Shown one piece after another: positions 22,751 to 27,921 of a stretch of 37,409 bases of DNA. The notes under the pieces were generated by a model, which had not been told where the DNA came from, did no database searches, and was given only the letters and a program-made list of their open reading frames with translations. This DNA is from an uncultured Pseudomonadota bacterium (lineage in GTDB: Bacteria; Myxococcota_A; UBA796; SXON01). The stretch spans positions 1 through 37,409 of the forward strand of contig CAJBVW010000604.1 in assembly GCA_903959175.1 (NCBI GenBank). Reading direction: 5' to 3'. The position numbers and the translations under genes are program-made. Positions within the stretch are counted from its first letter, which is position 1. Each line of letters begins with the position of its first letter.

Positions 22751-23239
22751 ATGCTGCTCTTCCTCTCCTCCGTGGCGCTCGCCGGCAAGTGGGACGGCGC
22801 GGAGACCGACATCTCCGCCGAGCGCGTGATCCCCGCCGCGCCCGAAGCGGTGTTCTCCCACCTGCTCGACCTCGACCACCTTCGCGCCCTGTTCCCGACG
22901 GACTGCGTCGGCCTCTGGGAGCCCGGCGGGCGGACCTACGGCGAAGGCGCGAACGCCGTCGTCCGGTACGACATGGGCGCGATGCACCGCAAGCTCGCGA
23001 TGACGCTCGTGCGCGCCGAGGCCCCCCGCCTCATCGACCTCGACCACCTCGGCTCGCGCGGCTTCGTCACGCGGTGGAGCCTCTCGGAGGAGGCCGGCGG
23101 CACGAAGGTGCGCCTGCTCACCCCGCTGAACGCGCCGCCCGCGCCCTTCCGCGGCTACTTCCAGAACGTGGTCCGCCCCGAGTGGGTGGAGTGCTACGAG
23201 CGCACGCTGACCAACCTCGCGGGCGTGTTCCCGTCGTGA
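22751..23239 (+). CDS. Exported SRPBCC (START/Bet v1-fold) protein
   Basis: 162 residues. A short signal peptide (MLLFLSSVALA-G) precedes a helix-grip domain: 'ISAERVIPAAPEAVFSHLLDLDHLRALFP' at the start, the central 'AVVRYDMGAMHRKLAMTLVRAEAPRLIDLDHLGSRGFVTRWSL' sheet and a long C-terminal helix ('NVVRPEWVECYERTLTNLAGVF'). SRPBCC domains bind hydrophobic ligands such as lipids or polyketides; most are cytoplasmic, so export is unusual. It opens a four-gene cluster whose second start (GTG) overlaps this TGA as GTGA at 23236-23239. TTAGAA (22736-22741) is a possible -10 with a very short leader. Ligand unknown. Confidence 0.78.
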   Translation: MLLFLSSVALAGKWDGAETDISAERVIPAAPEAVFSHLLDLDHLRALFPTDCVGLWEPGGRTYGEGANAVVRYDMGAMHRKLAMTLVRAEAPRLIDLDHLGSRGFVTRWSLSEEAGGTKVRLLTPLNAPPAPFRGYFQNVVRPEWVECYERTLTNLAGVFPS

Positions 23240-24021
23240 TCGCAGTCCTGCTCGCAGGGCTGGTGTCCACGGCGGACGCGTCCGACCGTGCGGACGGGGA
23301 CGCCGCCGACGCCGCCCGCGACTGGCCCGCGGCCCTCGCCGCATGGTCCGCCTGCGCCGCCGCGGATCCCGGCGGGCGGGACGGCCGCTACTGCGCCACC
23401 CGCGCCGCGGCGCTCGCTCCCCAGGCCGCCGACCGATTCGCCGGGTGGGGCGCCCTCGAGGAGGTGCGTCGGGAGTACCGAACGCTCGGTTCGGACGCCG
23501 CCGTCGCGCGTGTGGAGGCCGCGCTGGCCGCCGCGCCCGAGGGCCCGGCCGCCGCGTCGATGCGGGTGTGGCTGGCGAACGAGCGCGCGCGGCGCGGCGA
23601 GCACGACGCCGTCGCGCGGATCGGGGCGGAGCTCGCGGTCGACCCCGGCGCCACCGACACGCAGCGCGCCTTCGTCGCCGGGCGCGTCGCCTTCGACCGC
23701 CGCGAGGGGCAGCGGCGCGTCGTGGCGGGGGTCGCCGGCGCCGTCGGCGTGGCCTACCTCGCGGTCGCGGCGCGCGGGCCCGGTCCGTGGCGGTGGCGCT
23801 CCGCGGGCCTCGCGGCGGGACTGCTGGGTGCGGTCCCCGTCGTCCTCGCGGCGCTGTACGAGGACGGCGTGGCGACCGGCTTCGCGGCCTCCGGCCTCGT
23901 CGTGAGCGTAGCCGTGCTCCTCGCGGGGCGGGCGCCGCGCTGGATCGCGGTTCCCGGCACGCTCGGGGGCTTCGGCGCGGTGGCGTGGGCCAACGGCTGG
24001 TACCCCTCGTTGGGCTTCTGA
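23236..24021 (+). CDS. TPR-like membrane protein of the radical SAM cluster
   Basis: 261 residues starting at GTG 23236, which overlaps the preceding stop; no later start gives a complete signal. Residues 1-15 (MIAVLLAGLVSTADA) look like a signal peptide. Residues 20-150 are helical with a TPR-like pattern ('ARDWPAALAAWSACAAADP', 'ERARRGEHDAVARIGAELAVDP'), and three to four hydrophobic segments follow (about 165-180, 188-206, 212-230, 235-255). The topology is a periplasmic helical domain joined to a membrane bundle. Family unknown. The TGA overlaps the radical SAM ATG by one base (24021), strongly suggesting coupled synthesis. Confidence 0.72.
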   Translation: MIAVLLAGLVSTADASDRADGDAADAARDWPAALAAWSACAAADPGGRDGRYCATRAAALAPQAADRFAGWGALEEVRREYRTLGSDAAVARVEAALAAAPEGPAAASMRVWLANERARRGEHDAVARIGAELAVDPGATDTQRAFVAGRVAFDRREGQRRVVAGVAGAVGVAYLAVAARGPGPWRWRSAGLAAGLLGAVPVVLAALYEDGVATGFAASGLVVSVAVLLAGRAPRWIAVPGTLGGFGAVAWANGWYPSLGF

Positions 24022-25196
24022 TGGCGCGCCCGATCCGTCGCATCCGCCTCGGGCACGCGCCCAACTGCTCGTCGCTCGGGAACGTGCTCAACGCGCTGGT
24101 GTGGACCCAAGCGGCCGTCGGGATCCTGTGGGTCGCGGCGGAGGCGTGGCCGGCGCGGCGCCGACGCCCCGAGCCCGGCGGCGGCGAGACCCGCGCCGTA
24201 GACGACCCGCCCGCGCTCGTCACCACCGGCGACACCGTGGAGGCCCCCATCGAGGCCCACGTGCAGGTCACCAAGGCGTGCGGCCTCCCCTGCCCGTCCT
24301 GCCACATCGACCCGACGCCGGACGGCCCCCACGTCCCCGTGGACGTGCTCGACACGCGCTTCGCCGCCCTCGCCGCGCGCGGGGTCTTCCGCGTCGCCAT
24401 CGGCGGCGGCGAGGCCCTCCGCCACCCCGACCTCCCCGGCATCGCCGCCGCTGCGCGCCGCCACGGCCTCACGCTCGGGCTCACGACCTCCGGGGTGGGG
24501 CTCACCGAGCGCCGCGCCGCCGATCTCGCGGGGTTCTCCCAGGTGAACGTGTCGCTCGACGGCGTGGGCGCGGCCTTCGCGGCGGCGCGCGGCTACGACG
24601 GCGCGGACGGCGCGCTGCGGGCGATCCGGGTGCTCGCGGCGGCGGGCGCGCGCGTGGGCGTGAATGTCGTGCTCGACCGCGCGGGCTTCGATCGCATCGA
24701 AGAGACCGTGCTCGCCGCGGTGGAGGCCGGCGCGCGCGACGTGCAGCTCCTCCGCCTCAAGCCCGCCGGGCGCGGCACCGCCGGCTACCTCGACCGCCGG
24801 CTCACCCCCGAGCAGGGCTGGGACCTCTGGCCGCGGGCGCGCGCGCTCGTCGAGGCCCACCCCGGCGTGACCTTCCGCGTGGACTGCTCGCTCGTGCCCT
24901 TCCTGGCCGCGCACGGAGTCGACCCCGAGCGCATGCGCGCCTTCGCCTTCCTCGGCTGCCACGGCGGCGACGCCCTCGTCAGCGTCGACCCCGCCGGCGC
25001 CGAGCACCCGTGCAGCTTCGTCCCGGGGCCGGTCACGCCGCAGTGGCGCGAGGGCGTGACGCAGGGCGCGTGTGCCTCCTGCGCATACCGTGACATGTGC
25101 CGCGGCGGCTGCCACGCGGTCGCTGCCCACCTCACCGGCGATCCCTTCGCGCCCGATCCGGAGTGCCCGATGGTGCGCGCCGGGGCGCCCGGATGA
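24021..25196 (+). CDS. Radical SAM/SPASM enzyme with N-terminal membrane-anchor-like extension
   Basis: 391 residues. The radical SAM cluster motif is C87-x3-C91-x2-C94 (ACGLPCPSC), with the expected 'VAIGGGEALRHPDL' motif and 'QVNVSLDG' strand. The C-terminal SPASM-type region has Cys residues in 'FLGCHGG', 'EHPCSFVPG', 'QGACASCAYRDMCRGGCHAVA' and 'DPECPM', enough for two auxiliary clusters, as in peptide-modifying enzymes (PqqE/MftC-like and heme-pathway relatives). An extra 85 residues at the N-terminus include 'HAPNCSSLGN' (Cys16) and a hydrophobic stretch (about 19-43), unusual for this family. No precursor peptide gene is seen nearby, so the substrate is open: a peptide, a neighbouring membrane protein or a small molecule. 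The start overlaps the previous stop; the stop overlaps the next start (ATGA). Confidence 0.88.
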   Translation: MARPIRRIRLGHAPNCSSLGNVLNALVWTQAAVGILWVAAEAWPARRRRPEPGGGETRAVDDPPALVTTGDTVEAPIEAHVQVTKACGLPCPSCHIDPTPDGPHVPVDVLDTRFAALAARGVFRVAIGGGEALRHPDLPGIAAAARRHGLTLGLTTSGVGLTERRAADLAGFSQVNVSLDGVGAAFAAARGYDGADGALRAIRVLAAAGARVGVNVVLDRAGFDRIEETVLAAVEAGARDVQLLRLKPAGRGTAGYLDRRLTPEQGWDLWPRARALVEAHPGVTFRVDCSLVPFLAAHGVDPERMRAFAFLGCHGGDALVSVDPAGAEHPCSFVPGPVTPQWREGVTQGACASCAYRDMCRGGCHAVAAHLTGDPFAPDPECPMVRAGAPG

Positions 25197-25474
25197 AGGC
25201 GAACGCACGAACCTCCGCGATCCTGTGCTTCGTGGTCGTCGCGATCGTCGGGTACGCGGCGCTCCGGCTCCGGGGCGCGATCGGCGAGCCGGATCCACGC
25301 ACCGTCGGCCCCAGCCTGCACGTCGGCTACTACTGGCGCGTCGCGACGGCGCTGTGGTGGGCGACGCTCGCGGCCGTCGGCGGGTGGCGGTTCCCCGACG
25401 CGGGCACCTGGGCGGCGCGGGCGCTGCCGGTCGCGGTGGGCGCCGCGGTGATCGCGGCGTTCGCCGTACCGTAG
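25193..25474 (+). CDS. Small membrane protein coupled to the radical SAM gene
   Basis: 93 residues from ATG 25193, which overlaps the radical SAM stop as ATGA. Two or three hydrophobic helices are visible (about residues 9-27, 48-65 and 70-92), separated by the polar loop 'GAIGEPDPRTVGPSLHVGYYWR'. No family recognised. Tight coupling suggests it works with the enzyme, for instance as a membrane partner, carrier or substrate. It contains one Cys (in ILCFVVV) and two adjacent Tyr that could be modified, but that is speculation. It converges on the LptF/G-like gene with 4 bases between the stops. Confidence 0.7.
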   Translation: MKANARTSAILCFVVVAIVGYAALRLRGAIGEPDPRTVGPSLHVGYYWRVATALWWATLAAVGGWRFPDAGTWAARALPVAVGAAVIAAFAVP

Positions 25475-25478
25475 GCGG

Positions 25479-26183
25479 TCAGCCCCACCGGCGCGGGAAC
25501 AGGGGCGCGCGGAGGAGTAGGACGAGGATCGCCGCCCCGGCCACGGCGGCGGCCACGCCCACGCCCGCCGTCGGGAGCGCGCCACGCTCGGCGAGGCCCC
25601 GCGCCACGAGGTCGGTCACGAGCAGGAGCGCGGCGGCGACGAGCGTGGGGGCGGCGCCCGCGTAGAGCCCCAGCGTGGCCCCGAGCGCGCCCGCGGCGCA
25701 CCCGGTGAGGGTGTCCGCCACGGGGTCTCGCGTGGCCCGCGGGAGCGGCCGCACGACGCCGCCGGGGGCGTCCGGCCAGCCCTCCCCGTCCCGGATCCAG
25801 CCTCCGTCGCCGCGGGCCCACTCCCCCGTGCGCGCCGGCGCGTCCACCGGCACCCGGCTCGCGAGGCCCCCGACGGCGGCGCCGGTCAACCCCGCGACGA
25901 CGAGCACGAGGCGCGGCCCCACGCCGAGGGACGCGAGCCCGAGGAGCACGCCCTGACGACGCAGGCGCACGACCGCGAGCGCGGCGCCGCACAGGCCGAG
26001 GACCGCGGAGGCCTGCGCCCAGAGCGCGGGGACGCGCGTCGCCGCGGCGCGGAGCACGTCGGGGAGCGAGGCGTCCGCGGCCTCGACGAGGACCACCAGC
26101 ACGAAGAGCGCGGCGCCCGCGAGCTGGGCGGCGACCACCCCGCCGACGACGGCGCGGGCGAGGAGGAGCAGGGCGCGCTTCAT
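25479..26183 (-). CDS. Reduced LptF/LptG-like permease with minimal periplasmic domain
   Basis: 234 residues, against about 350-390 for normal LptF or LptG. Six hydrophobic segments are visible in a three-plus-three layout (about 4-35, 48-72, 85-108, then 152-172, 174-194, 203-225). The 'GVLLGLASLGVGPRLVLVV' part after TM2 matches the LptF/G coupling region that normally reads 'R-A-x-G-V/I-S'. The loop that should hold a roughly 130-residue beta-jellyroll is only about 45 residues ('RTGEWARGDGGWIRDGEGW' and following). LptF/LptG with LptB extract LPS from the inner membrane. The assignment rests on layout and neighbour, so other permease functions remain possible. It is 9 bases downstream of the longer LptF/G-like gene. 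Confidence 0.6.
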   Translation of the reverse strand: MKRALLLLARAVVGGVVAAQLAGAALFVLVVLVEAADASLPDVLRAAATRVPALWAQASAVLGLCGAALAVVRLRRQGVLLGLASLGVGPRLVLVVAGLTGAAVGGLASRVPVDAPARTGEWARGDGGWIRDGEGWPDAPGGVVRPLPRATRDPVADTLTGCAAGALGATLGLYAGAAPTLVAAALLLVTDLVARGLAERGALPTAGVGVAAAVAGAAILVLLLRAPLFPRRWG

Positions 26184-26192
26184 CGGGGGCGC

Positions 26193-27167
26193 TCAGGCAT
26201 CGCGCCACCCGCGCCACGCGTAGAGGAGCCACCCGACGGCGACCGCGACGACGCCACACGCCACCGGCGCCAGACCGACGCCCGCGACCCATTGGTCGCC
26301 CACGCGCACCGCGCCCCAGACGAGGCCCACCGGCGCGCCGACGAGGGCCAACAGCGGCCACCGCAAGCGGAGGGCGAGGGGCGGCACCGCGAGGCCGATG
26401 GACAGAAAACAGAGTGGGAGCAACGTCCGCTTCCACAGGATCCACCGCTCGTACGCGTCCCGGCCGAGCGCCGCGCTCACCGCGAGCTGCCGGCGGAGGT
26501 CCGGCGTGGTGCGCTCGGAGGCGTGGACCTTCCCGCCGGTGCCCCCGAGCGAGATCGGCATCTCCAGCGCGGCGAAGCGGGCGCGGCTCGCGCCGTCGAG
26601 GCCCTGCAGCTCGCCGTCCCGGAGCTCCACCACGACCCCGGTGAGCGCCGGCCGGATCTCCCAGGACGCCGCCTTCCCCCTCCACTCTCCCCCGGCGAAG
26701 TGGAGGACGCCATGCTCGACCGCGGCCGCCCATCCCCCCAGCGCCACGACGCGGCCCTCGACCGGCACGACACGCACGGCGGCGGCGATCCGCGCGTCCC
26801 GGAGGGCCGCCCGCGCGAGCGGCTCCCCGACGTGGGTCACGCCCAACCACAGGGCGGCCACGCCGCCGAGGAACGCGACGACCGGCGGGAGGAGGGCGCG
26901 GCCCCCGACGCCGAGGCTGCGGAGGCCGAGCCACGCGCGATCCTCCGCGACCTGCCGCAGGCCCGAGGCGAGCCCCCCGAGCGCGCCGACGGGGAGCGCG
27001 AGGCTGGCACCGACGCCCGCGGCGCCCAGGAACATCCGCCCGAGGAGGTCGAGATCGGGCACGACGGCGCTGACCAGGAGCGCCTGCCCGAGCCCCCCCA
27101 GCGCGAGCACCAGCCACACCAGGGCGCCGACCGTAGCCGCGCGGCGAACGACGGGCACGAGCACCAT
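26193..27167 (-). CDS. LptF/LptG-family permease
   Basis: 324 residues from ATG 27167. An in-frame TTG at 27254 would add 29 residues ('...RQASVRLLLAR') and bring the length to 353, nearer the family norm; neither has a good ribosome-binding site. Layout: TM segments near residues 12-33, 42-70 and 85-105, a periplasmic part (about 115-225) rich in beta strands ('GVLHFAGGEWRGKAASWEIRPALTGVVVELRDGELQG'), a helix, and three C-terminal TMs (about 235-305). This is the YjgP/YjgQ layout of the LPS export permeases. LptF and LptG work as a heterodimer; the short neighbour downstream could be its partner. Divergent from cdnL. Confidence 0.75.
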   Translation of the reverse strand: MVLVPVVRRAATVGALVWLVLALGGLGQALLVSAVVPDLDLLGRMFLGAAGVGASLALPVGALGGLASGLRQVAEDRAWLGLRSLGVGGRALLPPVVAFLGGVAALWLGVTHVGEPLARAALRDARIAAAVRVVPVEGRVVALGGWAAAVEHGVLHFAGGEWRGKAASWEIRPALTGVVVELRDGELQGLDGASRARFAALEMPISLGGTGGKVHASERTTPDLRRQLAVSAALGRDAYERWILWKRTLLPLCFLSIGLAVPPLALRLRWPLLALVGAPVGLVWGAVRVGDQWVAGVGLAPVACGVVAVAVGWLLYAWRGWRDA

Positions 27168-27263
27168 GCGCGCGAGCAGCAGGCGGACGGAGGCCTGCCG
27201 CGAGGCACCGGGCGCGGGGCCGGGAGCGGCTGGCGCGGCACGAACGGCAGGCAAGACGGCGAT

Positions 27264-27279
27264 TGGGGGAACTTTTGCT
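27264..27279 (+). promoter_or_regulatory. Possible sigma-54-type site upstream of cdnL
   Basis: TGG at 27264-27266 and TTGCT at 27275-27279 place GG and GC exactly 10 bases apart, with a good -12 half but a poor -24 half. Transcription would start near 27290, giving a leader of about 137 bases before cdnL. Weaker than the site at 8664. Confidence 0.25.
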
Positions 27280-27303
27280 TGGATGGAGAGCCAAGAACGG
27301 GTT

Positions 27304-27347
27304 AAGAGCCCCACGCTCGTTCGCCCAGCGCGTCCGTGCGGGCTCTT
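27304..27347 (+). other. Inverted repeat in the cdnL leader
   Basis: AAGAGCCC (27304-27311) and GGGCTCTT (27340-27347) are perfect 8-base complements separated by 28 bases, ending in a short T-run. It lies 80 bases before the cdnL start. It could be a leader stem with an attenuator-like form or an old terminator; nothing further is visible. Confidence 0.35.
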
Positions 27348-27426
27348 TCGGATCCGCCCGGTGCTCCCCCCGATACGCCTGCTCTTCCAGGGCAGGGCCG
27401 GGCGGTACGAGCGCCAGCGAGGATCC

Positions 27427-27921
27427 ATGGAGTTCAATGTCGGCGACAAGGCGGTCTACCCTGCTCATGGCGTCGGGATCATCAGAGACGTCGTGACTCA
27501 AGAGATGGACGGAGAGAAGGTCACCGTCTATGTCTTGAAGATCCTCGACAACGGTATGACGATCCGGGTGCCCGTGCAGAACGCGCGCTCGATCGGGATG
27601 CGCGGTGTCATCTCCCGCGACCATGTGGACAAGGTTTACGAGATCCTCCGCGACCGGGACGTCCCCACGGACAACCAGACGTGGAACCGTCGCTACCGCG
27701 ACTACATGAGCAAGATCAAGACGGGCGATCCGCTCGAGGTGGCCAAGGTCCTCCGTGACCTCGCGCTCCTCAAGAGCGAGAAGGCCCTCTCCTTCGGCGA
27801 GCGCAAGATGTTCGACCAGGCGCGCAGCCTGCTCGTCCAGGAGATCGCCGTCGCGAAGGACCACGACGAAAAGCTCGTCGGGGCAGAGATCGACGCGCTC
27901 TTCGCGCTGAAGACGGAGTAG
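27427..27921 (+). CDS. cdnL: CdnL/CarD-family RNA polymerase-binding regulator
   Basis: 164 residues, the same length as Myxococcus xanthus CdnL. The N-terminal Tudor-like domain ('FNVGDKAVYPAHGVGIIRDV ... VYVLKILDNGMTIRVPVQNARSIGMRGVIS') binds the RNA polymerase beta subunit, and the helical C-terminal domain ('TWNRRYRDYMSKIKTGDPLEVAKVLRDLALLKSEKALSFGERKMFDQARSLLVQEI') contacts DNA at the promoter upstream of the transcription bubble. CdnL stabilises open complexes, especially at rRNA promoters, and is essential in Myxococcus. ATG 27427 lies 4 bases after GAGG. cysS starts 39 bases downstream. The identification is firm; the very similar CarD of actinobacteria is the main alternative name. 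Confidence 0.95.
   Translation: MEFNVGDKAVYPAHGVGIIRDVVTQEMDGEKVTVYVLKILDNGMTIRVPVQNARSIGMRGVISRDHVDKVYEILRDRDVPTDNQTWNRRYRDYMSKIKTGDPLEVAKVLRDLALLKSEKALSFGERKMFDQARSLLVQEIAVAKDHDEKLVGAEIDALFALKTE

Follow-up and report, generated by a model that had tools for sequence, protein, structure and literature searches.

A radical SAM/SPASM enzyme with a candidate substrate peptide fused to its N terminus in Myxococcota_A

Introduction

Among described radical SAM/SPASM systems, SkfB, SuiB, CteB and PqqE, together with MftC by profile, come closest to the locus presented here, with which they share a CX3CX2C barrel, the full set of SPASM cysteines, the best PDB fold matches and a dedicated small peptide linked to the enzyme gene. 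anSME, another member of the SPASM subfamily, forms formylglycine from either Cys or Ser (PMC5682303). The borosins are a RiPP enzyme family that occurs both fused to its precursor (OphMA) and split from it (SonM/SonA; PMC8429565), with the core peptide at the C terminus (PMC7878506). No description of the present system was found in the open-access radical SAM/SPASM literature searched.

The locus lies in a stretch of 37,409 nucleotides from an uncultured member of Myxococcota_A (the window). On balance, it probably encodes a SPASM system for peptide maturation, with the substrate peptide fused to the N terminus of its own enzyme, the counterpart in most of the phylum being a separate membrane peptide encoded upstream.

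Results

A recurring operon around a SPASM enzyme

Four ORFs, encoding proteins of 162, 261, 391 and 93 residues, occupy positions 22751-25474, all on the forward strand:

22751-23239, forward strand: exported SRPBCC (Polyketide_cyc2-like) protein, 162 aa (ORF; Pfam E 2.4e-11; a family-specific addition)
23236-24021, forward strand: exported TPR-like protein with C-terminal membrane segments, 261 aa, GTG start (ORF; profile homologues at 62 of 78 loci, some with TPR matches)
24021-25196, forward strand: radical SAM/SPASM enzyme with fused N-terminal peptide module, 391 aa (ORF; Pfam E 2.4e-12; full SPASM Cys set; AlphaFold pLDDT 94)
25193-25474, forward strand: small membrane protein, 93 aa, with the family motif Y...R ... 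YYWR (ORF; family at 51 of 78 loci)

The junctions read GTGA (4-bp overlap), TGATG (1 bp) and ATGA (4 bp), and all four overlapping genes lie where the original prediction had placed them. The SRPBCC protein has a short ALA|G-type signal peptide that is common to its homologues. The second gene product combines a signal-like N terminus, a helical region and three predicted C-terminal hydrophobic segments; it has no Pfam match itself, and members of its family match TPR models. Hydropathy indicates two hydrophobic segments in the 93-residue protein.

The enzyme was present in 30 of 58 related genomes searched. The window's family shows the four genes repeatedly in the same order, overlapping for the most part, and the SRPBCC gene accompanies the other cassette genes at 15 of 18 loci. 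Genes 2-4, which encode the TPR-like/membrane protein, the enzyme and the small membrane protein, recur in genomes across the phylum and commonly overlap by 4 bp; at 78 enzyme loci, profiles detected the TPR/membrane protein 62 times, the small membrane protein 51 times, a four-helix membrane protein of ~150 residues 37 times and the SRPBCC protein 15 times. Given the recurrence of the SRPBCC-containing set in the window's family and of genes 2-4 phylum-wide, the arrangement is an operon, far beyond chance, and the recurring overlapped order bears out the predicted coordinated, membrane-associated unit around a SPASM enzyme. The expectation that the same four families would co-occur in distant genomes held for homologues of genes 2-4 and not for SRPBCC, which is confined to the window's family (0 of 60 loci elsewhere) and was dropped as a core component.

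The four-helix membrane protein is missing from the window; a relative is encoded elsewhere in the same genome (G000:C377:4768-5187, locus L183). In other families it is the last gene of the cassette, and its family has a conserved His, a Tyr-Arg and a Lys-Glu-His. AlphaFold predicted a confident four-helix bundle for the member at L062, for which a PDB fold search returned nothing below E 0.1; with Pfam matches that were weak as well, an assignment of this partner as a known haem protein was rejected.

Several further neighbours were noted. At L135-L144, in one enzyme clade, a downstream ORF of 265-302 residues that reads as a PEP-synthase regulatory protein (PPSR/DUF299-like) replaces the small membrane proteins. 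One genus within the window's family has a conserved, exported-looking 118-residue protein after the cassette (L047:5487-5843, L045:1318-1674). On the strand opposite the cassette, the window encodes a 234-residue membrane protein with no Pfam match (25479-26183) adjoining an LptF/LptG-like permease (26193-27449; Pfam match sub-threshold), and this gene pair (25479-27449) is partly conserved with the cassette in the window's family. At L132:1397-8232 (G307), the peptide, enzyme, small-membrane and four-helix genes lie, as read by eye, directly behind an apparent cbb3-type oxidase operon (CcoNO, CcoQ, CcoP, CcoG); this link to cytochrome oxidase is absent in the sister genome G264 (L189) and was not retained.

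An N-terminal peptide module with separately encoded counterparts

The enzyme begins with a short module that is joined to the catalytic domain by a linker:

24033-24149, forward strand: peptide module, residues 5-43 (IRRIRLGHAPNCSSLGNVLNALVWTQAAVGILWVAAEAW; begins IRRIRLGHAPNCSSLGNVLNALVW), homologous to separate ORFs of 58-184 aa in the rest of the phylum
24063-24080, forward strand: N15-C16-S17-S18-L19-G20, proposed modification site (C16 and S17 invariant; Cys/Ser swap in a split clade)
24150-24242, forward strand: variable linker from peptide module to enzyme domain (mean entropy 1.88 bits; length differs widely among homologues)

The module comprises a strand (residues 7-10), an N-C-S-S-x-G loop (15-20) and a hydrophobic helix. 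C16 and S17 are invariant in 27 fused proteins, and residues 11-18 (GHAPNCSS) are conserved as strongly as the SAM-cluster motif, though far upstream of the barrel: they outrank 98% of the enzyme's 8-mers in conservation, and their mean entropy is 0.49 bits as against the value given above for the linker. In most of the remaining phylum the enzyme lacks this N-terminal segment and the motif resides on a small ORF of its own, which usually lies immediately before the enzyme gene and frequently has a 4-bp overlap (for example, GHGANCSSIGSVVDTLF, and, from one clade, NPNSSSLGVDVTFLL). Fused and separate peptides share the motif G-x-x-[PA]-N-[C/S]-S-[S/A]-x-G followed by the hydrophobic helix. In one whole clade of split peptides, every peptide that was found carries Ser at the Cys position, with the neighbouring Ser kept.

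Because the same motif occurs on separate ORFs where the enzyme lacks the segment, the window's enzyme is, on sequence grounds, a fusion of peptide and maturase. The original prediction had stated that there was no evident precursor peptide. This does not hold: the precursor is probably present in the enzyme's own N terminus, and was likely missed because of the fusion. A pattern scan of the window's genome for the motif returned the enzyme alone, which removed other proteins of that genome as candidate carriers. The motif matched nothing in NCBIfam, and one split peptide checked against Pfam gave no match.

Peptide and enzyme co-occur across the phylum

A 44-column peptide profile was run against 361 genomes of the phylum, with the enzyme family called at E < 1e-80. 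Taking genomes up to G360 as the assumed searched set, 74 genomes contain both peptide and enzyme, 2 the enzyme only, none the peptide only and 285 neither. Both enzyme-only matches begin at a contig edge that cuts off the N terminus. A dedicated peptide, and candidate precursor, is thus linked to the enzyme in 74 of 76 enzyme genomes. Part of this co-occurrence is trivial, since fused genomes score for both; outside the window's class the association is not trivial. Copy numbers also match, with two peptides and two enzymes in G073, G305 and G340 and one of each elsewhere, and they do so even where the genes are far apart. Peptide and enzyme lie on different contigs in eight genomes (G093, G132, G206, G229, G283, G326, G332 and G352). 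At L172-L174, three loci examined for peptides in trans, the peptide was matched in a six-frame search and there is no called peptide gene.

Where the peptide is distant from the enzyme, a TPR protein tends to adjoin it, in three different contexts: a DUF3857/transglutaminase/TPR protein (L168, L175 and L176, confirmed by Pfam for L176), a TRAP DctP-TAtT pair (L166, L169 and L170, confirmed by Pfam for L166) or a TPR/membrane protein (L167). No TPR partner was recognised near the peptide at L165 and L171. From this we infer a joint role of the peptide, whether modified or not, with exported TPR proteins.

The enzyme resembles peptide maturases in fold and falls outside the named NCBIfam families

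The enzyme belongs to the radical SAM superfamily (PF04055 above cut-off, E 2e-12; CX3CX2C motif; barrel fold match) and contains the complete SPASM pattern C-X9-15-G-X4-C ... C-X2-C-X5-C-X3-C ... C:

24279-24302, forward strand: C87-X3-C91-X2-C94, SAM-binding [4Fe-4S] motif, invariant in alignment A1
24957-25166, forward strand: SPASM domain, C313-X12-G326-X4-C331 ... C351-X2-C354-X5-C360-X3-C364 ... C382, cysteines invariant in A1

None of the NCBIfam radical SAM/SPASM families matched above its curated cut-off (best score 105.9 bits against a cut-off of 265), and the same was found for the enzymes at L120 and L062, which supports the original prediction on this point. The best sub-cut-off profiles were MftC, GeoRSP, PqqE, NirJ and AhbD. 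An AlphaFold2 model of the fused protein, built from a 27-row alignment, reached a pLDDT of 94 and a pTM of 0.92. In this model, the strand at 7-10 and the helix at 30-40 are ordered, a further helix spans 24-27, the loop at 11-20 is looser (pLDDT 74), and three strands at 45-68 precede the barrel. The nearest PDB folds were SkfB, SuiB (with and without SuiA), CteB, PqqE and anSME, and sequence profiles agree with the fold search on PqqE and SkfB. The predicted strands before the barrel and the peptide strand are present without a three-helix winged fold, and Pfam gave no PqqD match. Neither a classical RiPP RRE nor a protease or exporter was identified.

Repeated fusion

In a tree made from the enzyme domain alone, the fused state characterizes the whole class of the window and appears separately within the split clade, where L115 is fused and its sister L142 is split (77% identity, support 100). 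L151 is also fused, in a reading frame with internal stops. The Ser-version peptides belong to one clade. As read from this tree, fusion arose at least twice. Repeated fusion indicates that peptide and enzyme work together, which by itself is no proof that one modifies the other.

Discussion

The system appears to be an undescribed peptide-modifying one, whose likely target is the N-terminal peptide. The homology of fused and separate peptides, their co-occurrence and matched copy number with the enzyme, the repeated fusion, the conserved gene order and the maturase-like fold are direct observations, whereas the peptide as substrate, the residue altered, the membrane role and the TPR protein as partner are inferred. 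As a more specific proposal, which we put forward tentatively, the SPASM maturase carries its substrate in cis and converts the Cys/Ser of the membrane-anchored N-[C/S]-S-S-x-G motif, for example to formylglycine, the modified peptide remaining permanently in a functional complex of the envelope that includes exported TPR proteins, and not a released natural product. In the mechanism proposed for the main reading, the short basic peptide strand (RIRL) would dock on the β-strands before the barrel, in the way that SPASM maturases bind their leader peptides, and would so place the N-[C/S]-S-[S/A]-x-G loop, itself predicted at the lower pLDDT of 74, at the SAM cluster. There, the 5'-deoxyadenosyl radical might oxidise or otherwise alter the Cys/Ser or the invariant adjacent Ser. 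The hydrophobic helix would keep the peptide at the membrane; there, in its modified form, the peptide may act with the exported TPR/membrane protein of the same operon; in the ancestral operons, the small membrane protein and the four-helix membrane protein may also be partners. The alternation of Cys and Ser argues against a thioether, and a sactipeptide-type maturase was set aside, as the Cys donor that it requires is replaced by Ser in one clade.

In the main rival of the substrate reading, the module serves the enzyme as a membrane anchor or as an accessory subunit, much as PqqD serves PqqE. It would tether the enzyme to the TPR/membrane protein, and the true substrate would be some other membrane protein, or else a lipid or small molecule. 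We regard this as a real possibility that falls short of probable. The hydrophobic segment is found in fused and split forms alike and could make the module a mere anchor, a point against the substrate reading; the perfect co-occurrence is equally expected of an obligate subunit, the Cys of the motif is not universal, and accessory domains often exist both fused and free. An anchor would, however, have no need of an invariant polar G-x-x-x-N-C-S-S-x-G loop that surpasses most of the enzyme in conservation, an RRE fold would not fit into so short a module, and in several genomes the peptide gene stands with TPR proteins instead of the enzyme, as would a gene for a product. A weakness of the substrate reading itself is that, in the fused form, the modified module would remain attached to the enzyme unless cleavage of the linker frees it.

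That the 93-residue protein or a ligand of the SRPBCC protein is the substrate, as the original prediction had suggested, now seems very improbable, even though the gene order is overlapping and the 93-residue family has one invariant Arg and a near-invariant Tyr, Arg and Trp. SRPBCC is an add-on of one family, so its ligand is unlikely as a general substrate. The 93-residue protein adjoins the enzyme at just 22 of 44 loci outside the window's class; being absent from about half of them, it is not an obligate substrate, and was downgraded. Moreover, in one member of the window's family a relative is located elsewhere, beside the four-helix protein (L185), and the N-terminal peptide is the better-matched partner of the enzyme. 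About as improbable, finally, is that the product of the enzyme is a small redox cofactor or a group like haem, in the manner of PqqE, MftC or AhbD, that the peptide or membrane proteins only use or carry. The best NCBIfam profiles point in this direction, as do the conserved His of the four-helix protein, one member of which is weakly similar to COX15/CtaA, and the single cassette read by eye behind an oxidase operon; yet all of those profile matches are far under their curated cut-offs, the peptide motif lacks the conserved Tyr of PqqA and MftA, the four-helix fold search gave no significant match, and the oxidase context is missing in the sister genome.

Should the peptide prove to be the substrate, the system would represent an undescribed maturase-peptide pair, testable with two short genes. 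It would also be the radical SAM counterpart to the fused and split borosins, and its motif permits genome mining. From the Cys/Ser alternation comes a specific prediction of which position is modified. The association with exported TPR proteins suggests that the modified peptide serves the cell envelope and does not act as an antibiotic.

In contrast to SkfB, SuiB, CteB and PqqE, the present system has a peptide with a membrane segment, an enzyme-fused form and a TPR/membrane partner, whereas it matches no family model above cut-off, its motif falls outside NCBIfam, and no RRE, protease or exporter was identified. The Cys/Ser target of anSME is mirrored by the NCSS and NSSS versions of the motif at the putative modified position, and the folds match. 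However, there is no sulfatase here, the peptide reads N-[C/S]-S-[S/A]-x-G in place of the sulfatase motif C/S-x-[PA]-x-R, and the target would be a small membrane peptide. For the fused/split duality of enzyme and peptide there is precedent in the borosins, which are N-methyltransferases of unrelated chemistry and enzyme class and in which the core peptide is C-terminal, as opposed to N-terminal in the window. TRAP transporters with TAtT offer a further likeness, one subclade having the peptide gene after the DctP and TAtT genes, whereas at the other loci read there are no TRAP genes by the peptide and its neighbour is a TPR/membrane or DUF3857 protein.
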